Assembly (NCBI GenBank): GCA_013177825.1
Contig: JABLXX010000009.1
Coordinates: 1 to 64,000 of the forward strand
Direction: 5' to 3'
Source: Syntrophaceae bacterium
GTDB lineage: Bacteria > Desulfobacterota > Syntrophia > Syntrophales > PHBD01
DNA: 64,000 bases
This document shows positions 48,842 to 59,870 of this stretch, one piece after another. Under the pieces are notes generated by a model. The model had not been told where the DNA came from. It worked only from the letters and a program-made list of their open reading frames with translations, and did not search any database. The translations under genes were made by a program, and so were the position numbers. Position 1 is the first letter of the stretch. Every line of letters begins with the position of its first letter.

Positions 48842-48847
48842 CCACCC

Positions 48848-49038
48848 TTAACTGCCGAATTCCGCCACCTATGGCGGAAGCGGGGGAACCGAGTTCCAGG
48901 GGCGCATCGCTGCATCCGGCGTAGGGCAAACCTCTTCGGCCCGAGCCCGTCAGCTAACCTCGCAGGCGTCGAAGGGGGAGAACCTTCCATGGGCAGGACG
49001 GGTTTATCCTCCACAGTCCACAGCCTGGAGGTTTTCTC
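48848..49038 (+). promoter_or_regulatory. c-di-AMP (ydaO/yuaA) riboswitch controlling kup
   Basis: The leader contains the conserved blocks of the ydaO class in the correct order: ACTGCCGAATTCCGCC (48851-48866), GGCGGAAGCGGGGGAACCGA (48873-48892), GTAGGGCAAACCTC (about 48921), CCGAGCCCGTCAGCTAACCT (48941-48960) and CGAAGGGGGAGA (about 48970). These are the class's nucleotide-binding and core segments as I know it. Downstream, CCTCCA (49008-49013) can pair with the ribosome-binding site TGGAGG (49026-49031), so ligand binding probably limits translation. It precedes a potassium transporter, the classic regulon. Confidence 0.9.
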
Positions 49039-50982
49039 ATGACTGATTCCCCCAGAGAGACGAAAGAGAAGCCATCATCCCCCCGGAACGATTCGGACCA
49101 TCCTGCCGTTCAGCATCCGCCGGGGGAAAACCTGCCCCTGGTTCTAGGGGCTCTGGGGGTTGTATTCGGCGACATCGGCACAAGCCCGCTGTATGCCGTC
49201 AAGGAGTGTTTCCACGGCACGCACGCCATTGCACTGAGCGAAGCCAACATTCTTGGAGTCCTGTCCCTTGTCTTCTGGTCCCTGACCGTTGTGATCAGTG
49301 TCAAGTATGTAACCTTTCTTCTCCGGGCCGATCATAAAGGAGAGGGAGGCATTTTCGTTCTTCTTGCGCTCACTCTTTCGGGCAAGCGCCCTTTGTCGCC
49401 TCGATTGAACTCCACGGTCGTACTCGCGTCATTGTTGGGGGCGGCGCTTCTGTACGGTGACGGGATCATCACACCCGCCATTTCCGTGCTATCGGCTGTC
49501 GAGGGTTTGGGTGTTGCCACAAGGGAGGCACAGCCTCTCATCCTCCCGTTTACATGCTTGATTCTTCTCCTGCTCTTTCTTTTCCAGTATCGCGGAACGG
49601 CAAATATCGGGCGTATTTTCGGTCCGATCATGCTGATCTGGTTTTCTTCCATCGCTGCGTTGGGTATTAAGGAGATCCTTATCAACCCGGAAGTCCTGCG
49701 GGCGGCGAACCCGCTTTATGCCTATGAATTCTTCGTCCTCAACAAACTGCACGGATTCATCGTGCTGGGCTCGGTGGTGCTTTGCATTACGGGAGGAGAG
49801 GCGCTCTATGCGGATCTCGGTCATTTCGGAAGAAGGGCCATCCGGCTTTCATGGCTGGGTGTGGCCTTCCCTGCCCTGCTCTTGAACTATTTCGGCCAGG
49901 GCTCTCTTCTTCTGACCCATCCGGAGATGGCCTTCAACCCGTTTTACGGTCTTGTGCCGAGATGGCTCCTGTATCCCATGGTCGGGCTCTCCACGGTTGC
50001 GACCATCATCGCCTCGCAGGCCATGATTTCCGGCGTCTTTTCACTGACCCAACAGGCGATCCAGCTCGGTTTCTGCCCTCGCATGCGGATCATCCACACG
50101 TCCCAGGAAACAAGAGGGCAGATTTACATGCCCGGCATCAATTATAGCCTGATGTTTGCCTGCATTGGAGCAGTGCTCTTTTTCAAGGATTCGAGCGGCC
50201 TTGCCGGAGCTTACGGCGTTGCAGTCACATCAACGATGGGCCTTACCTCCGTCATGTATCTCTTCGTTCTCCTGAGGGCATGGGATTGGCCTCTCTGGAA
50301 AGCGCTCCCGCTGGTCGGTCTGTTCCTCATGTTTGACTTGTCGTACTTCATCGCAAATATCCCGAAGATACCCTATGGCGGGTGGTTTCCCATCATCATG
50401 GGAGGGTCAATCCTCGCAGTCATGGCCACATGGAAGGAAGGCCGCAACGAACTGTCCCGCATGATGCTGAGCAGCCGCTTTCCACTGGATCAGTTTCTGG
50501 AAGAACTCTCCAGAAGCACGATGGTGCGCGTGCCGGGAACGGCAGTTTTCATGACGATCTCGCCCGTCGGCACCCCGTCGGCGCTGCTGCATCACGTCAA
50601 ACATAACCGCATGCTGCATGATCGGGTAATCCTGTTGACGGTAAAGACCATCGACAATCCAAAGGTGCTGATTAGTGAGCGGCTGAGTGTGGAGGATCTG
50701 GGGCAGGGATTCTATCGAATCCAGGCTGCTTACGGGTTCATGGAAAAGCCCAGTGTCTCGGAAATCTTCAGGCTGGCGTCCCGATCCGGCCTCCGGGTCG
50801 ATCCGGCCATATCAACGTTCGTCCTCGGGAGGGAAACATTGTTGACAACGGGCAGGGGGAAAATGATGGAATGGCGCAAACATCTTTTCGCGTTCATGTC
50901 CAGAAACGCTCAGACGGCAACACTATTTTTCGGCATTCCGCCAGGGCGGGTGATTGAAATCGGCATTCAGATCGAGCTCTAA
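49039..50982 (+). CDS. kup: KUP-family potassium transporter
   Basis: The 647-aa protein has about twelve membrane helices with the KUP hallmark LGALGVVFGDIGTSPLYAVKE, GDGIITPAISVLSAVEGLGV, ITGGEALYADLGHFG and GQGSLLLTHPE, and a C-terminal cytoplasmic domain from about residue 460. It imports K+ with protons. Control by the c-di-AMP riboswitch directly upstream fits the known role of that messenger in limiting potassium uptake. Confidence 0.95.
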   Translation: MTDSPRETKEKPSSPRNDSDHPAVQHPPGENLPLVLGALGVVFGDIGTSPLYAVKECFHGTHAIALSEANILGVLSLVFWSLTVVISVKYVTFLLRADHKGEGGIFVLLALTLSGKRPLSPRLNSTVVLASLLGAALLYGDGIITPAISVLSAVEGLGVATREAQPLILPFTCLILLLLFLFQYRGTANIGRIFGPIMLIWFSSIAALGIKEILINPEVLRAANPLYAYEFFVLNKLHGFIVLGSVVLCITGGEALYADLGHFGRRAIRLSWLGVAFPALLLNYFGQGSLLLTHPEMAFNPFYGLVPRWLLYPMVGLSTVATIIASQAMISGVFSLTQQAIQLGFCPRMRIIHTSQETRGQIYMPGINYSLMFACIGAVLFFKDSSGLAGAYGVAVTSTMGLTSVMYLFVLLRAWDWPLWKALPLVGLFLMFDLSYFIANIPKIPYGGWFPIIMGGSILAVMATWKEGRNELSRMMLSSRFPLDQFLEELSRSTMVRVPGTAVFMTISPVGTPSALLHHVKHNRMLHDRVILLTVKTIDNPKVLISERLSVEDLGQGFYRIQAAYGFMEKPSVSEIFRLASRSGLRVDPAISTFVLGRETLLTTGRGKMMEWRKHLFAFMSRNAQTATLFFGIPPGRVIEIGIQIEL

Positions 50983-52831: not shown

Positions 52832-54187
52832 TCACATGACCCCGAACCCGATCATGAGGGCAAAGAGGGACAGGACAAGACCGATCCAGAGGAGGACCAT
52901 GGTCGTGTAACCCATGATGTCCTTGGCGGACAGGCCGGCCAGTCCGAGGAGCGGCAGCGCCCAGAACGGCTGGATCGCATTGGTCCACTGGTCTCCCCAG
53001 GCCACCATCATGGCCGACTTCACCATGTCGATGTTCATCATCTTCGCCGCCTCGACCGTGATGGGCCCCTGCACGGCCCACTGGCCGCCGCCTGAAGGCA
53101 CGAACACGTTAATGATGCCGGCCCCCCAGAACTGGAACATGTAGAAGGTTTCCTTCGTAGAGAAAGCGACGAACCACCCGGCGATGATCTTGGCCAGACC
53201 GGTGCCGATCATGATGCCCATGATCCCCCCATAGAGCGGGAATTGCAGGGCGATGCCGCCGCAGGAGCGGATGGCCTGGTTCATGGCCTGGACGTAATTG
53301 ATGGGCTTCCCGTGGAGGATCACGCCAAGAATGAAGAACGTGAAAATGACGATGTCCAGGTTCAGGTCCAGACCCTTCGTGGAGAAATGGCTATAGAGAT
53401 AAATCAACCCCATCGCCGCGAAAACGAAATTGATGATGTAGCTGTGATCGACCCGCTCCGCCAGAGTCGGACTTACGGGTTTCTCGACATGGACGGTCTC
53501 TCCCAGGAGTTCCTTCACCCTTTCCTCAGAAATCGTCTGGGTCTCTTCCTCCCTGGGATGCATGAAATAGAAAAGGATGGGAATCGTGAACAGGAGGAGG
53601 AGCGCCGGGACCAGGTTCCAGGAGGCCAAAATCGTGTCTGATATGGGGGTTACCAGTCCCGTCGCCTTCTCAACGAGGTTTTGGGGATGCTTCGCCGTGG
53701 CCAGAAGCAGGGGGATGGAACCGGAAAAGCCCATGTGCCAGATGCACAGTCCGCTGTAGGCGCCGGCGATCAGGAGCGGAAAGTCGGATTTCCTCTGCCG
53801 ACGGGCGATTTCCAGGGCCAGGAACCCCCCCATGATGAGACCGAATCCCCAGTTGATCAGTCCACCGAAGCTTCCCACGAAGGCGGTGATCATGGCACCT
53901 CTCACGGGTGTCGTCGCCAGGGAGGCCACCCAGTCCAGGACTTTCTTCAGCGGAGGCGTCAGAGCCAGGCAGTAACCCGTCACCAGGACCAGGATCATCT
54001 GCATGGTGAAGGCGAGGATTCCGTACACGCCTTTCCCCCAGGTTGTGATAACCTTCATGAAATCCGCGCCTGCAAAGAGCAGGGCCAGCACAGCAGTGAG
54101 AAAGGTCAGGAGAATGGCGAACAGGTAGGCATCCGGAAGGAAATGCCTCATGAAATAAGTGAAGAAACCTGCCAACTTACGAATCAT
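52832..54187 (-). CDS. Short-chain fatty acid transporter (AtoE family)
   Basis: The 451-aa protein has about twelve membrane segments and the AtoE pattern: FGGLINWGFGLIMGGFLALE, SGLCIWHMGFSGSIPLLLAT, FQFWGAGIINVFVPSGGGQWA and GDQWTNAIQPFWALPLLGLA. AtoE imports short-chain fatty acids such as butyrate or acetoacetate. ATG 54187 follows AAGGAGGTGTGCT, an ideal site. In a syntrophic, fatty-acid-metabolising organism it would supply acids for activation by the CoA transferase next door. Confidence 0.92.
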   Translation of the reverse strand: MIRKLAGFFTYFMRHFLPDAYLFAILLTFLTAVLALLFAGADFMKVITTWGKGVYGILAFTMQMILVLVTGYCLALTPPLKKVLDWVASLATTPVRGAMITAFVGSFGGLINWGFGLIMGGFLALEIARRQRKSDFPLLIAGAYSGLCIWHMGFSGSIPLLLATAKHPQNLVEKATGLVTPISDTILASWNLVPALLLLFTIPILFYFMHPREEETQTISEERVKELLGETVHVEKPVSPTLAERVDHSYIINFVFAAMGLIYLYSHFSTKGLDLNLDIVIFTFFILGVILHGKPINYVQAMNQAIRSCGGIALQFPLYGGIMGIMIGTGLAKIIAGWFVAFSTKETFYMFQFWGAGIINVFVPSGGGQWAVQGPITVEAAKMMNIDMVKSAMMVAWGDQWTNAIQPFWALPLLGLAGLSAKDIMGYTTMVLLWIGLVLSLFALMIGFGVM

Positions 54188-54251
54188 AGCACACCTCCTT
54201 ATTGAAAGAACAGAACGCGAGGACCACAGCCTCCTTACAGGCCGGCCCCCC

Positions 54252-54289
54252 AAAAAAAAACTCCAACTTCAGTTCAGAAGTCGGAGTTT
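54252..54289 (-). terminator. Terminator after the CoA-transferase gene
   Basis: On the - strand AAACTCCGACTTC (54289-54277) and GAAGTTGGAGTTT (54270-54258) pair (one G-U), followed by a U-run to 54252. It separates atoE from the CoA-transferase. Confidence 0.85.
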
Positions 54290-54431
54290 GCCCCTTTTAA
54301 CACCATCGCTTCTTCCTCCAGGATGAATTCATGATGGTGATACTGACGGACCGTATCAAAAAATGCCTATCCTTGTCAAAGCCAAACACCGAATGACGCC
54401 ATGTCAGTCCCATCGACTCTCGGATTCACCA

Positions 54432-55607
54432 TCAAATTATGCCGCGTTTCCTCAGATCGATTCTCGAGCGGGCGTCAATCCTCATTGCCTCCAACAGTTC
54501 ATCCGTATGCTCCCCCAACGCGGGCGGCGGTGTTCTCCAGCCCGGCTGCTCTCCGGAAAACTGGACGGGAAAAGCCTGCTGCAGGATCTCTCCGTTTCCC
54601 TGCTGTAGCGCCCGGAACCAAAGTCCCCGATGGCGCACTTGGGGATCGTCCAGAACCTCGTCCAGCGAATTCACCGTGGAGAAACAGACGTCGAAGCGGT
54701 CCAGGAGTTCCACCCATTCCCCCCGGGTCCGCTGCAGGAAGACGGCCCGGAGCTCCGAGATGATCTCAACCTGCCGGTCGAGCGGAGCCAGCAGATCGCC
54801 GGCAAGATCGTTGCGGCGGATCGCCCGGCAGAAGGATTCCCAGAACTTCTCCTCCAGGCAGCCCAGAGCGATGCAGCGGCCGTCTTTTGTTTCGTAGACA
54901 TTGTAACAGGCATATCCGCCTCCCACTCTGGCCTCCCCTCTCCCCGGCGCGGATCCCCGGGCGGCGAACTCGGACATGATAAGGCCCAGGTATGGGGAAA
55001 GGCCGTCCAGCAGCGACACATCGAGGTACTGGCCCGCTCCGCAAAGCCGGCGTCGGAGGAGTGCCGCCAGGATTCCCAGGGCGGCCAGAATCGCTCCGCC
55101 CGCGCCGGCAATCTGAACCGCCGGTACAATCGGTCGGCGTCCACTCTCTCCCAAGAGATCGAGGATACCCGAAATGGCCAGAATATTGATGTCATGTGCG
55201 GGTTTCAGACTGTAAGGGCCGTCCTGTCCGAAGCCGCTCAGGGAACAATACACGAGGTTATGATTGATCTCCCGTACCGTTTCATAACCCAGTTCCCAGC
55301 GGCCCATGGTTCCGGGCCGGAAGTTCTCCACCAGAACGTCGGCGCCCGGGATCATGCGCCTCAGGATCGTCCTCCCTTCTTCCTCGTGCATGTTTAACGT
55401 CATGCTTCGCTTGTTACGGTTGATCACGAGAAAAAAACTTCCGGTGTCCCCCATCAGGGGCGGCGCTTTGCGAAATCCGTCTCCGCCTTTCGGATTCTCG
55501 ATCTTGATCACGTCGGCGCCCAGATCCGCCAGGATCTGGGTGCACAGACCTCCCGGGAGCACCTGAGATAGATCCAGCACCCGGGTTCCTTCCAGAGGCA
55601 AAGGCAT
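54432..55607 (-). CDS. Class III CoA-transferase (CaiB/BaiF), AMACR-like
   Basis: The 391-aa protein has the family start VLDLSQVLPGGLCTQILADL, ADVIKIENPKGGD, RNKRSMTLNM, and the catalytic-region Asp in AHDINILAISGIL, which resembles the GHDINYLA of alpha-methylacyl-CoA racemase. The family transfers CoA between acids or racemises 2-methylacyl-CoA esters. It shares orientation with atoE but lies upstream behind its own terminator. The substrate is open. Confidence 0.88.
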   Translation of the reverse strand: MPLPLEGTRVLDLSQVLPGGLCTQILADLGADVIKIENPKGGDGFRKAPPLMGDTGSFFLVINRNKRSMTLNMHEEEGRTILRRMIPGADVLVENFRPGTMGRWELGYETVREINHNLVYCSLSGFGQDGPYSLKPAHDINILAISGILDLLGESGRRPIVPAVQIAGAGGAILAALGILAALLRRRLCGAGQYLDVSLLDGLSPYLGLIMSEFAARGSAPGRGEARVGGGYACYNVYETKDGRCIALGCLEEKFWESFCRAIRRNDLAGDLLAPLDRQVEIISELRAVFLQRTRGEWVELLDRFDVCFSTVNSLDEVLDDPQVRHRGLWFRALQQGNGEILQQAFPVQFSGEQPGWRTPPPALGEHTDELLEAMRIDARSRIDLRKRGII

Positions 55608-55726: not shown

Positions 55727-56281
55727 CTATGGGTTCCCGCGGGACAGCAGCTGCTTGAGCCGCTCCAGCCCGCGATAAATCCTCATCTTGGCGGCACTGA
55801 GGGAAATGCCCAGGATCTCCGATGTCTCCTCCAGGGAAAGTCCCTGGTAAAACCGGAGAATCAGGGCCTCCCGCTGGTCCGCCGGGAGGCGCCACAGCAT
55901 CCGTTGCAGCCGTTCCGCTTCTCTCGCTTCATCCAGGCGGTCTTCCATCCCCGGGGCGTTGTCGGCCGGATCTCCCTGGCAGGCCGACTCGATGGATCCC
56001 GCTTCCTCCCGTTTTTTCTTTTTCAAGTGGTTCCGGATCCCGTTCAGGGCAACCGTATACAGCCAAGTGAAAAACGGTCGCTCTCTGTCATATCGATGAA
56101 GGTTCCGGAAGGCCCGGATAAACGCTTCCTGGGACAGATCGTCGGCATCCTGAAGGCTGCCCGTCATTCGGTACGCCAACTGGAGAATGGGATTCTTGTA
56201 AGCATCGACCAAAAGAGCATAGGCATTGGTATCGCCCTCCAGGATTCGTTGGACAATGTCTTTCGCCTGCCGCTGGTCCAC
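55727..56281 (-). CDS. ECF-subfamily RNA polymerase sigma factor
   Basis: The 184-aa protein has sigma region 2 (AYALLVDAYKNPILQLAYRM, then DADDLSQEAFIRAFRNLHRY) and region 4 (LPADQREALILRFYQGLSLEETSEILGISLSAAKMRIYRGLERL). No region 1.1 or 3, so it is an ECF factor. No anti-sigma gene is adjacent, which is unusual; regulation may be transcriptional or by an unlinked partner. Its own regulon is unknown. Confidence 0.92.
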   Translation of the reverse strand: MDQRQAKDIVQRILEGDTNAYALLVDAYKNPILQLAYRMTGSLQDADDLSQEAFIRAFRNLHRYDRERPFFTWLYTVALNGIRNHLKKKKREEAGSIESACQGDPADNAPGMEDRLDEAREAERLQRMLWRLPADQREALILRFYQGLSLEETSEILGISLSAAKMRIYRGLERLKQLLSRGNP

Positions 56282-56562: not shown

Positions 56563-56602
56563 TTGACAACCCCGATCCCTTGTTTTAAAGTTCACGAACT
56601 TT
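56563..56602 (+). promoter_or_regulatory. Promoter of the leader-oxidoreductase operon with overlapping palindrome
   Basis: TTGACA (56563-56568), 17-bp spacer, TAAAGT (56586-56591). A perfect 7-bp inverted repeat AAAGTTC-AC-GAACTTT (56587-56602) overlaps the -10 and start site, a typical repressor position. Confidence 0.65.
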
Positions 56603-56617
56603 TTTTGGAGTTTTCCA

Positions 56618-56740
56618 ATGACGATGGCACTCGGACTGGACAAAGCAAGGGGTTTGATGAGGGATCTGCTGCTCCTATTGTGCCTTCCCCTGCTCCTTCT
56701 GGGGTCCCTTCCGACGCCCATCGTTTTTAGGAAGCGCTGA
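56618..56740 (+). CDS. Leucine-rich leader peptide
   Basis: A 40-codon frame, with GGAG 8 nt before the ATG, encodes DLLLLLCLPLLLLGSLP at residues 16-32: ten of residues 17-28 are Leu, and 14 of 40 in total. It ends PTPIVFRKR. It lies directly upstream of an attenuator-type terminator and the 2-oxoacid oxidoreductase genes. By analogy with leuL/ilvL this should be a regulatory leader that senses charged tRNA-Leu. It could instead be a small hydrophobic protein, but the RNA structures argue against that. Confidence 0.7.
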   Translation: MTMALGLDKARGLMRDLLLLLCLPLLLLGSLPTPIVFRKR

Positions 56741-56795
56741 CCGAAACGCAACGAGACGATCCTAAAGGCCATGGGTGACCACCCATGGCCTTTTT
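56716..56795 (+). terminator. Attenuator terminator with competing antiterminator
   Basis: AAAGGCCATGGGT (56764-56776), loop GACC, ACCCATGGCCTTT (56781-56793) is a perfect 13-bp stem running into TTTTTG. Upstream, GCCCAT (56716-56721) and TTTAGG (56726-56731) can pair with ATGGGT (56771-56776) and CCTAAA (56761-56766), a 12-bp antiterminator with a small internal loop that would dissolve the terminator. A ribosome stalled on the Leu run (about 56666-56701) leaves this region free. Confidence 0.75.
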
Positions 56796-56829
56796 GTTTA
56801 TGGCGGACAACAACCAACGGGAGAAATGC

Positions 56830-57393
56830 ATGTACGAGATCATCTGGCACGGCAGGGGAGGACAGGGCGTCGTCATCGCGGCACAGATGCTGGCGGAGGC
56901 CGCCTACCTGGGAGGATTCAAGGGTGTCACATCGGCTCCCACCTTCGGTCCCGAGCGCCGGGGAGCTCCCGTTACCGCATCGACCCGGATTGCCGAAGAA
57001 CCAATCCGCACCTTTTCCCAGCTTGAGAAGGCAGACATCACCGTCGTTCTGGATGATACGCTGTTTCAGGTGGCGGACATCTGGGGACGATCGAAACCGG
57101 GCGGTATGGTTATCATCAATACGGCGAAGCCCCCAAACCAGTTCTCCTGTCCGGAGGGAATCCGGACAGCCTTCGTGGACGGTGCATCGATCGCCCTGAA
57201 GAATCACCTGATCCGGGAGGGAGCGCCGGTGGTTAACACTCCCATGCTGGGCGCTTTTGCCAAGGCCACCGGCTTGGTATCCTTGGAAAATCTGGAAAAA
57301 GCACTGGAGGAAAAATTATCCCGGGAGGCAGTTCGGCGGAATTTCGCCACGGTTACGGATGCCTACCAGGAGACGACCATCGTCACCGGCTGA
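56830..57393 (+). CDS. 2-oxoacid:ferredoxin oxidoreductase, gamma subunit
   Basis: The 187-aa protein is the gamma (domain III) subunit: YEIIWHGRGGQGVVIAAQML at the start, then FGPERRGAPVTASTRI, the CoA-region segment, and NTPMLGAFAKATG. ATG 56830 is chosen at the conserved start. Gene order gamma-delta-alpha-beta matches archaeal/bacterial POR and VOR. The leucine-sensing leader suggests a branched-chain 2-oxoacid enzyme, possibly used to make branched-chain amino acids by reductive carboxylation. Confidence 0.9.
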   Translation: MYEIIWHGRGGQGVVIAAQMLAEAAYLGGFKGVTSAPTFGPERRGAPVTASTRIAEEPIRTFSQLEKADITVVLDDTLFQVADIWGRSKPGGMVIINTAKPPNQFSCPEGIRTAFVDGASIALKNHLIREGAPVVNTPMLGAFAKATGLVSLENLEKALEEKLSREAVRRNFATVTDAYQETTIVTG

Positions 57394-57471: not shown

Positions 57472-57765
57472 ATGGAAAAACGAGACGAAAACATTTCGGC
57501 CATGTGCAGGCCCGCTGTCGGGGAAGCGGGAAGAACCGGGGACTGGCGTACCGTCCGGCCGGTCATCGATCCGACAAGATGCATCCCCGCCGTGAAGAGG
57601 AAATCCGCCTGCTTCCTCTGCTGGCTGTACTGCCCCGAGGGCGTTGTCAAGGCCACCATCCCGGTCGAGATCGATCTGGATTACTGCAAGGGATGCGGCA
57701 TCTGTGCCGAGGAGTGTCCGGCCAAGGCCATCCAGATGGTAAGGGAGGACCAGTCCGATGAGTAA
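57472..57765 (+). CDS. 2-oxoacid:ferredoxin oxidoreductase, delta (ferredoxin) subunit
   Basis: The 97-aa subunit has two cluster motifs. The second is standard (CKGCGICAEECP). In the first, CFLCWLYCP lacks its normal partner two residues earlier; the next upstream Cys is nine residues away (CIPAVKRKSACFLC), so the first cluster may be bound with altered spacing. Start 57472 follows AGAGG. It overlaps the alpha gene by 8 bp. Confidence 0.88.
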   Translation: MEKRDENISAMCRPAVGEAGRTGDWRTVRPVIDPTRCIPAVKRKSACFLCWLYCPEGVVKATIPVEIDLDYCKGCGICAEECPAKAIQMVREDQSDE

Positions 57766-58966
57766 GGTGCAGATCATGACTGGCAATTCGGCAGCGGCGG
57801 CAGCCGTCATGCTTTGCGACGTCCAGGTGGTGGCGGCCTACCCGATCACCCCCCAGTCGCAGCTGGCGGAGATGATGTCGCAGTACATCGAAAGCGGGGA
57901 GTTGAAAGCCGAATACGTCCGGGTCGAAGGAGAGCACACCGCCCTGACCGTCTGCATTTCCGCCTCCACCGTCGGCGCCCGGGTCTTCACCGCCACCAGC
58001 GCCAACGGACTTCTCTATATGCACGAGCAGCTCCACTGGGCGGCGGGGGCCCGCCTCCCGATCGTCATGTGCTGCGTCAACCGGGGTGTCGGCGCACCCT
58101 GGACCATCTTCAACGACCAGCAGGATTCCCTTGCCCAGCGCGATACGGGATGGATCCAGCTCTACTGCCGGAACAACCAGGAAATCCACGACACGATCCT
58201 GCAGGCCTACCGGATCGCGGAATCGGTCTATGTCCCGGTCATGGTTTGCTACGACGGCTTTGTCCTTTCACACACCATGATGCCCGTGGATATCCCGGAG
58301 CAGGAAGGCGTGCGGGAGTACCTGCCGCCATACAAGCCCCACACGATCCTCACCCCCGACGACCCCCGCTGTCTCAATCCCGTGCTTTTCCCGAACCGCC
58401 GGGCCGACAGCGAAGGAGTCCTGCGGGACGGTTACATGGAGATGCGCTACAAGCTTGAAGCCGCCCTGGAAAAAGCACTGGGCGCCATCACCGAGGCGAG
58501 TGACACCTTCGCAAAGCGTTTCGGGCGCGATCATGGCGGCCTGGTCTGGGGCTATCGGACGGAGGACGCTGAACTCCATCTCGTCGCCATGGGTTCCCTC
58601 GCCAGCGAGGCCACTCTGGCCGCCGACGCACTCCGCGCCCGGGGCATCCGGGCCGGCGTTACGGGAATCCGGGCATTCCGACCGTTCCCGAAGGCGGCCG
58701 TCAGAAAAGCCCTGCAAGGAGCAAAGGCCGCTGTCGTCTTCGAAAAAAGCATCAGTTACGGGAACGAGGGCGCGCTGTGCACGGAAATCAAGGGCGCCCT
58801 GTTCGGAACGGGAATCGAGCCGGCCGTTTACAACTACATCGCCGGCCTGGGGGGGCGGGACGTAAAGGCCCGCGAACTGGAGGCCGCAGCCGGAGAGTCG
58901 TGGGATGACCTGTCAGCGGGTCGGCGGGAAAAGAACACAACCTGGCTCAACTGCGTTACGGAGTGA
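57758..58966 (+). CDS. 2-oxoacid:ferredoxin oxidoreductase, alpha subunit
   Basis: The 402-aa alpha subunit shows the domain I/II pattern: TGNSAAAAAVMLCDVQVVAAYPITPQ, YVRVEGEHTAL, GARVFTATSANGLLYMHEQLHW, and the conserved RNNQEIHDTILQAYRIAE. It holds part of the TPP/substrate site with the beta subunit. It starts inside the delta gene and ends 4 bp before beta. Substrate specificity (pyruvate versus branched-chain 2-oxoacids) cannot be fixed by eye. Confidence 0.92.
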   Translation: MSKVQIMTGNSAAAAAVMLCDVQVVAAYPITPQSQLAEMMSQYIESGELKAEYVRVEGEHTALTVCISASTVGARVFTATSANGLLYMHEQLHWAAGARLPIVMCCVNRGVGAPWTIFNDQQDSLAQRDTGWIQLYCRNNQEIHDTILQAYRIAESVYVPVMVCYDGFVLSHTMMPVDIPEQEGVREYLPPYKPHTILTPDDPRCLNPVLFPNRRADSEGVLRDGYMEMRYKLEAALEKALGAITEASDTFAKRFGRDHGGLVWGYRTEDAELHLVAMGSLASEATLAADALRARGIRAGVTGIRAFRPFPKAAVRKALQGAKAAVVFEKSISYGNEGALCTEIKGALFGTGIEPAVYNYIAGLGGRDVKARELEAAAGESWDDLSAGRREKNTTWLNCVTE

Positions 58967-58970
58967 GACG

Positions 58971-59870
58971 ATGCCGGAAAATCTCTTCAAAATCAACAGC
59001 AAGGAATACATCCTCCCGGGGAGCCGGGCCTGTCAGGGCTGCGGGTTGTCTCTCTTCTATCGATATGCCTTGAAGGCGCTCCGTGAGAACACGATCGTCA
59101 CGCTTCCGGCATGCTGTCTGTGCGTCCTCCAGGGTCTCTATCCGAGCACGCCGGTCATGGTGCCCGCCCTGAACAACTCTTTCGCGAGCACGGCGGCATC
59201 GGCATCCGGTCTGGTTGCAGGTCTCCGGGCGCTCAATAAGGCGGATACCACCGTCGTGGCCATCGCCGGAGACGGAGCGACCTTCGACATGGGAATCCAG
59301 GCCCTGAGCGGAGCGGCCGAGCGGGGAACGGATTTTATCTACGTCTGCTATGACAATGAAGGGTACATGAACACGGGTACCCAGCGCTCCAGTGCCACGC
59401 CCATGGGCGCCCTGACGACGACGACGCCGATCCTCACGAAACAGCAGCCGAAAAAGGACTTTCTGAAGATCATGGAGGCCCACAACATTGCCTATATCGC
59501 CACGGCCTCTCCTTCCTATCCCCTCGATCTTTATGACAAGTTCGTCAAAGCCAAGAAAATCCGGGGGACGCGGTACATCCATATCCATGTTCCCTGCCCT
59601 CCCGGCTGGGTGTATCCGCCCAAAGACACTGTGAAAATGGGTCGGCTGGCCGTGGAAACGGGGTTGTTCCCACTGTTTGAAATCGAAAACGGGAAGTTCC
59701 GTTTCACCGGCCGCAGCAAGACCCAGGCGGAACGGGGAAACCGTCTTCCGGTGATCAATTACCTGGAAAAACAGGGAAGATTCCGGAAGATGGACGCCGA
59801 ACAGCTCAGCCAGTTTCAGTCCATGGTGGATGCCAAATGGGACGAGTATCTGCGGAAAACGGAAGGATAG
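58971..59870 (+). CDS. 2-oxoacid:ferredoxin oxidoreductase, beta (TPP) subunit
   Basis: The 299-aa beta subunit has CQGCGLSLFYRYALKAL with Cys ligands for the proximal cluster, the TPP motif GDGATFDMGIQALSGAAERG and CYDNEGYMNTGTQRSS, and ATPMGALTTTTP typical of the PorB/VorB group. The fourth Cys ligand region is CPPGWVYPP. It is the last gene of the operon and converges on waaA. Confidence 0.92.
   Translation: MPENLFKINSKEYILPGSRACQGCGLSLFYRYALKALRENTIVTLPACCLCVLQGLYPSTPVMVPALNNSFASTAASASGLVAGLRALNKADTTVVAIAGDGATFDMGIQALSGAAERGTDFIYVCYDNEGYMNTGTQRSSATPMGALTTTTPILTKQQPKKDFLKIMEAHNIAYIATASPSYPLDLYDKFVKAKKIRGTRYIHIHVPCPPGWVYPPKDTVKMGRLAVETGLFPLFEIENGKFRFTGRSKTQAERGNRLPVINYLEKQGRFRKMDAEQLSQFQSMVDAKWDEYLRKTEG

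Follow-up and report, generated by a model that had tools for sequence, protein, structure and literature searches.

Known leucine attenuators and the locus under study

The enterobacterial leu operons (leuABCD) are governed by the leucine attenuator leuL. A Leu-leader attenuator has also been described for the ilv-leu operon of Staphylococcus aureus (PMC5794164), and candidate Leu attenuators have been recognized at leuS in the Actinobacteria (PMC1262725); the known Leu leaders control biosynthetic or tRNA-synthetase genes (PMC5794164; PMC1262725). In the Actinobacteria leuA is associated with the LEU element, for which a pseudoknot involving the leuA Shine-Dalgarno box was proposed (PMC1262725). 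On the metabolic side, rumen bacteria were found by labelling to carboxylate isovalerate on the way to leucine (Allison et al. 1962, 1966, as cited in PMC7356843); this route is known from labelling, and the openly searchable literature linked neither a gene nor any regulation to it.

The window, by which we mean the whole stretch of 64,000 nucleotides that was analysed, derives from a member of the Syntrophales (G000) whose only relative of the same genus in our sample is HGW-Deltaproteobacteria-19. Between positions 56563 and 56800 it carries a promoter, a Shine-Dalgarno sequence, a Leu-rich leader, an antiterminator and a terminator, followed by a gamma-delta-alpha-beta operon for a 2-oxoacid:ferredoxin oxidoreductase (OFOR). 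In common with the leuL-type, ilv-leu and leuS attenuators, this element has a leader with Leu codons, mutually exclusive antiterminator and terminator helices, and leucine-related targets; unlike the leuL-type attenuators, the Syntrophales element also targets an OFOR, and in the window it matches no Rfam family. It resembles the actinobacterial LEU element in placing a Leu-run leader 5′ of leuA, but it is a terminator/antiterminator switch and not a pseudoknot. The enzyme shares with the POR/VOR gamma-delta-alpha-beta OFORs its subunit set, its domains, and the Thr and Arg of the oxoacid-binding loops, and differs from them in forming a separate clade (100/100), in a changed loop, in scores that lie under the equivalog cut-offs, and in its Leu attenuation. 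The reaction that we propose for it is that of the rumen isovalerate route. The original prediction held that leucine attenuation of a ferredoxin oxidoreductase had not been described, and the searchable literature (subscription papers being outside its scope) likewise yielded no report of any OFOR under attenuation.

The leader and its RNA structures

A sigma-70-type promoter (TTGACA-17-TAAAGT; 56563-56591, plus strand) was located by sequence scan, its TTGACA box being present at the equivalent position in several relatives. It is followed by a Shine-Dalgarno GGAG (56607-56610, plus) and a leader ORF of 40 codons (56618-56740, plus; stop codon 56738-56740) which specifies the peptide MTMALGLDKARGLMRDLLLLLCLPLLLLGSLPTPIVFRKR. 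Residues 17-28, encoded at 56666-56701, contain exactly ten Leu, precisely as originally predicted. Divergent from the leader is a gene for an ECF-type sigma factor (55727-56281, minus).

Duplex energies and covariation define region 2 (GCCCATCGTTTTTAGGA; 56716-56732, plus), which is the 5′ strand of the antiterminator, and region 3 (TCCTAAAGGCCATGGGT; 56760-56776, plus), which serves both as its 3′ strand and as the 5′ strand of the terminator. The competing antiterminator that had been predicted is present, yet at 16 pairs with one C-C mismatch it is longer than the 12 bp assigned to it. The predicted 13-bp terminator is there as described: sequence scan and covariation place an intrinsic terminator at 56764-56799 (plus), with the stem-loop at 56764-56793, the loop GACC, and a U-tract after it. 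The antiterminator duplex has an energy of -21.8 kcal/mol, versus -14.4 in shuffled sequences, and the terminator one of -22.2 kcal/mol. A candidate region 1 (protector) at 56610-56628 (plus) overlaps the start codon of the leader and is able to pair with region 2 (-18.1 kcal/mol, z -1.5); this pairing reached z < -2 in only a subset of the leaders, namely 17 of 41 preceding gamma and 6 of 26 preceding leuA. The full element is matched by our covariance model R1 at 56710-56800 (plus, E 4.9e-13). Among the Rfam covariance models neither Leu_leader nor any other family matches the attenuator in the window, which rules out a known Rfam element as its identity.

Conservation across the Syntrophales

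Orthologues of the gamma subunit occur in 78 of 149 Syntrophales genomes with 49-93% identity, and are clearly separate from paralogs (approximately 40%). Most of these genes, in many Syntrophales families, have a Leu-rich leader at the equivalent position on their 5′ side. We assembled a detailed set of 73 leaders or upstream regions of gamma and leuA, and 69 of these contain a leader in which 14 codons include 5 Leu or more; comparison of upstream regions had been named beforehand as a test of the prediction, and Leu-rich leaders do recur 5′ of orthologous operons. Leu accounts for 57% of the residues in the 14-residue windows (548 Leu, 35 Ile, 24 Val), and all six Leu codons are in use across the leaders. 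In one leader (L029, genome G051) the terminator and part of region 2 are kept and the Leu run is lost, and another (L017, genome G003) has three Leu only in the leader window; these two variants possibly represent decay or altered specificity. The exact pattern CGTTTTTAGGA-N10-40-CCTAAAGGCC gave 25 matches in the 149 genomes, two of them upstream of leuA, and none in the reversed control.

The RNA helices are conserved as well. The antiterminator has z < -2 in 62 of the 73 upstream regions. In an alignment of 59 leaders 91.8% of cells allow it to form, and both sides have changed in 31 cells compared with 10.1 in shuffles (0/500; the shuffles ignore relatedness), and the terminator is formed in 96.9% of cells, with 24 such changes compared with 9.6 (0/500; the same restriction applies). 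Examples of compensatory pairs are TAGGA/TCCTA, TAGGT/ACCTA and TAGAA/TTCTA. When control structures were slid along the alignment the paired fraction dropped to 38-57% for the antiterminator and 20-62% for the terminator. As in attenuators of the trpL/leuL type, the run of control codons lies in a short leader ORF upstream of region 2 (median of 15 nt from the last Leu codon), the leader stop codon falls at the end of region 2 and 26 nt before the terminator stem, and the antiterminator and the intrinsic terminator, both covarying, are mutually exclusive.

The region 2 sequence GTCGTTTTTAGGA is translated in all three frames in different genomes (PVVFR, PSFLG, and ARRF followed by a stop), from which we conclude that it is the RNA that is conserved and under selection, and that the end of the peptide is not. 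A conserved small hydrophobic protein is thereby ruled out. The broader alternative, that there is no attenuator here and that such a protein, or a chance Leu run, lies near an unrelated terminator, draws on the hydrophobic nature of the peptide and on the occurrence of terminator-like sites by chance (mean 2.0 in shuffles). It is already contradicted by the three-frame peptide end over a conserved RNA, the covarying alternative helices, and the presence of the same element before leuA, and we consider it exceedingly improbable.

Genes preceded by the element

Model R1 was run on the 149 Syntrophales genomes and detected the element in 134. The best 150 hits comprise 90 upstream of leuA, 56 upstream of gamma, and four at or near contig ends, of which three are consistent with the OFOR operon and one (in G098) has no assignment. 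Two of the copies at contig ends (L255 and L256) come from a single genome, G038, and each reaches the end of its contig just after the terminator; they are probably a duplicated operon that was broken in assembly. At the hit in G115 a truncated gamma follows at the contig end. The site in the window is the sole R1 hit in G000. The same terminator, behind a Leu leader, accompanies nearly all of the 30 leuA genes examined. A scan of 297 genomes from the phylum gave few strong hits outside the Syntrophales; the two that could be identified precede leuA, and none preceding an OFOR was recognized.

A conserved, predicted Leu attenuator is thus shown by sequence comparison to be common to leuA and the OFOR operon, and the predicted regulon is shown to be confined to these two targets. 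That one RNA element precedes leuA across the Syntrophales strongly supports the Leu-sensing attenuation that had been proposed from the window.

The oxidoreductase

The genes for the gamma (56830-57393; TIGR02175), delta (57472-57765, inferred start; 4Fe-4S ferredoxin-like, TIGR02179), alpha (57758-58966; POR_N, PFOR_II) and beta (58971-59870, inferred start; TPP-binding) subunits all lie on the plus strand, and NCBIfam and Pfam confirmed all four in the predicted order. The most likely start of gamma is 56830; an alternative at 56785 falls inside the terminator.

Scores above cut-off for TIGR02175 and TIGR02179, together with the POR_N, PFOR_II and TPP domains, place the enzyme in the OFOR superfamily and in the POR/VOR gamma and delta subfamilies. 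No subunit reached a curated equivalog cut-off: alpha scored 435 bits against PorA_Arch, its best-scoring model (cut-off 550), 344 against PRK08367 (pyruvate synthase; 625) and 377 against PRK08366 (2-ketoisovalerate ferredoxin oxidoreductase; 646), and beta scored 371 against PRK11864 (2-ketoisovalerate ferredoxin oxidoreductase; 405). Alpha, beta and delta score higher with VOR models than with the sister POR models (377/344, 371/350 and 82/68, respectively), unlike the paralog G000_C1, where the order is reversed (VOR 316, POR 414), and this lends mild support to a branched-chain substrate. Phylogenetically, alpha groups with other Syntrophales proteins and one related MAG in a clade of their own (100/100). 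Behind the oxoacid-binding arginine, the loop has the sequence NRGVGAPWTIFNDQQDS in this clade, as opposed to NRALSAPINIWNDHQDS in the pyruvate enzymes.

These results bear on the possibility that the operon encodes a pyruvate synthase (POR) whose expression tracks leucine because leucine reports the demand for amino acids at large. PorA_Arch is the top model for alpha, and the nearest solved structure, 9bt4, is a pyruvate:ferredoxin oxidoreductase. However, the PorA cut-off is missed, the loop is not that of POR, and two other POR-type alpha subunits encoded by G000 score higher on PorA; nor would a pyruvate synthase explain why the switch is shared with leuA. We regard this role as quite improbable. 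The two POR-type alpha subunits, and one of VorB type also encoded by G000, could serve pyruvate and catabolism.

The neighbourhoods in relatives contained no conserved acyl-CoA ligase beside the operon, and conserved neighbours offered no useful clue to the substrate, the upstream genes being those for HflX, a TPR protein and a short-chain dehydrogenase. In the window a short-chain fatty acid transporter (SCFA_trans) and a family III CoA-transferase adjoin the operon (52832-55607, minus); this pair could supply acyl-CoA, and its conservation beside the operon in relatives was not found. Elsewhere in the window a c-di-AMP riboswitch (ydaO/yuaA, RF00379, 95.1 bits; 48843-48983, plus) lies 5′ of an ORF of 647 amino acids (49039-50982).

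Absence of leuA

Canonical leuA, fragments included, was detected in 108 of the 149 Syntrophales genomes. It was not found in G000 or G001, each of which is rated 100% complete. Examination of the HMGL-family proteins of G000 revealed no 2-isopropylmalate synthase of any type. The protein most like LeuA is the citramalate synthase CimA (TIGR00977, 733 bits; cut-off 450), and the remaining members are an HMG-CoA lyase, a distantly related pair of lyase-like proteins with scores far under cut-off, and ORFs that resemble biotin enzymes (identity inferred), so that another isopropylmalate synthase is ruled out.

In relatives that possess leuA the gene order, assigned by similarity, is cimA-leuA-leuC-leuD-leuB, with leuA found at this place in G037 and G018. 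In five others (G005, G023, G031, G043, G053) cimA is directly followed by leuC, without leuA. Of 12 genomes lacking leuA that were tested, 11 retain leuC, which would fit a role of LeuCDB in making isoleucine from citramalate.

Among the genomes at least 90% complete, with G038 taken as operon-positive, 39 have both leuA and the operon, 19 the operon only, 44 leuA only, and four (G025, G033, G066, G093) neither as far as seen. The association is significant by Fisher's test (p 0.004), but not with one genome per genus (p 0.28); we therefore treat this statistic as supporting evidence only and base our argument on the switch shared with leuA and on the lack of LeuA in complete genomes. The leader was found in 24 of 28 operon-bearing genomes without leuA among the matches listed; G043 and G021 match more weakly at the expected position, and in G029 the site is cut by a contig end. 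Most genomes that lack leuA possess the OFOR, and in nearly every case the leader accompanies it. Both leuA and the OFOR operon coexist in many genomes.

Proposed mechanism and role

We propose that the element is a ribosome-mediated transcription attenuator sensing charged tRNA-Leu. Under leucine shortage the ribosome would stall within codons 17-28 and leave region 2 free to pair with region 3, whereupon the terminator would be blocked and the OFOR operon transcribed; with ample leucine it would reach the stop codon at 56738-56740 and cover region 2, and the terminator would form. The enzyme would run reductively, most likely converting isovaleryl-CoA, CO2 and reduced ferredoxin to 2-oxoisocaproate, which would be transaminated to leucine in a bypass of the 2-isopropylmalate synthase that G000 lacks. 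The isovaleryl-CoA would probably come from exogenous isovalerate. To this reading as a whole, namely Leu-controlled, ribosome-mediated attenuation of a reductive OFOR that bypasses LeuA, we assign a probability of about three in four.

The biosynthetic direction, part of the original prediction, is supported by the content of the regulon, by the absence of LeuA from G000 and many relatives, and by the sense in which the switch works, and it is from sequence comparisons of this kind that we infer both the reductive direction and the formation of 2-oxoisocaproate from isovaleryl-CoA. Most VORs that have been studied work oxidatively, which would suit a catabolic branched-chain OFOR for leucine degradation; the geometry of the switch, by which the operon is off at plentiful leucine, is the opposite of what degradation needs, and makes this very unlikely.

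Archaeal VOR-type enzymes accept several branched-chain oxoacids, and this breadth, together with the many genomes in which leuA and the operon both occur, could indicate that the same Leu attenuator controls an OFOR yielding 2-oxoisovalerate from isobutyryl-CoA, or branched-chain 2-oxoacids generally, for valine, isoleucine and LeuA. We think this unlikely, since the control residues are Leu only, the element is otherwise shared with leuA alone, and genomes without leuA cannot turn 2-oxoisovalerate into leucine. The Leu-only control codons and the last of these points narrow the product in our reading to 2-oxoisocaproate.

The leucine bypass is weakened by the four genomes with neither leuA nor the operon, by the one-per-genus p value, and by the coexistence of the two loci; also by the unattained equivalog cut-offs, by PorA_Arch as the best alpha model, and by the want of a conserved acyl-CoA ligase. 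Moreover, CimA may moonlight as an isopropylmalate synthase. We think it fairly probable that the Syntrophales encode a second leucine pathway, in which a dedicated OFOR that shares the Leu attenuator of leuA turns isovaleryl-CoA and CO2 into 2-oxoisocaproate and has replaced leuA in several lineages.

OFORs are reversible; since their sequence by itself reveals neither direction nor substrate, annotation commonly labels them catabolic or pyruvate enzymes. An enzyme that is under the leucine switch of leuA, and occurs in genomes without leuA, would be expected to produce leucine; the regulatory RNA hints at both direction and substrate, and singles out a small number of genes that can be tested directly. 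Many genomes of apparent leucine auxotrophs may not be those of auxotrophs, and syntrophic users of fatty acids would be tied to cross-feeding of branched-chain acids. If true, this would be the first gene set, with its regulation, for the isovalerate carboxylation route. The combination of attenuator and OFOR could be read in the same way for other paralogs, and attenuators before OFORs, such as the Trp leader described below, would then mark biosynthetic OFORs generally.

Other candidate attenuated loci

In the relative G094 (locus L294 on contig C49, minus strand) a Trp leader, MNRTLNLWWWRSSHKGSGVRV (NLWWWRSS), at approximately 1590-1670 of the locus is accompanied by a terminator, GGCCATGGGC..CCCATGGCC, of the same kind as that of the Leu attenuator. 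It lies directly 5′ of the gene for the alpha subunit of an indolepyruvate:ferredoxin oxidoreductase (TIGR03336, 526 bits), which is truncated by the end of the locus. This arrangement suggests a second attenuated, biosynthetic OFOR, in this case for tryptophan from indoleacetate.

Terminators of the same GGCC-RY-GGGC style follow leaders of other apparent specificities at four further loci, L281, L282, L283 and L300. The leader of L283 is Trp-rich, as perhaps is that of L281, and those of L282 and L300 are of the Phe/Tyr type, the last lying 5′ of a DAHP-synthase-like gene. Within the phylum, one common attenuator scaffold may have been adapted repeatedly to different amino acids.
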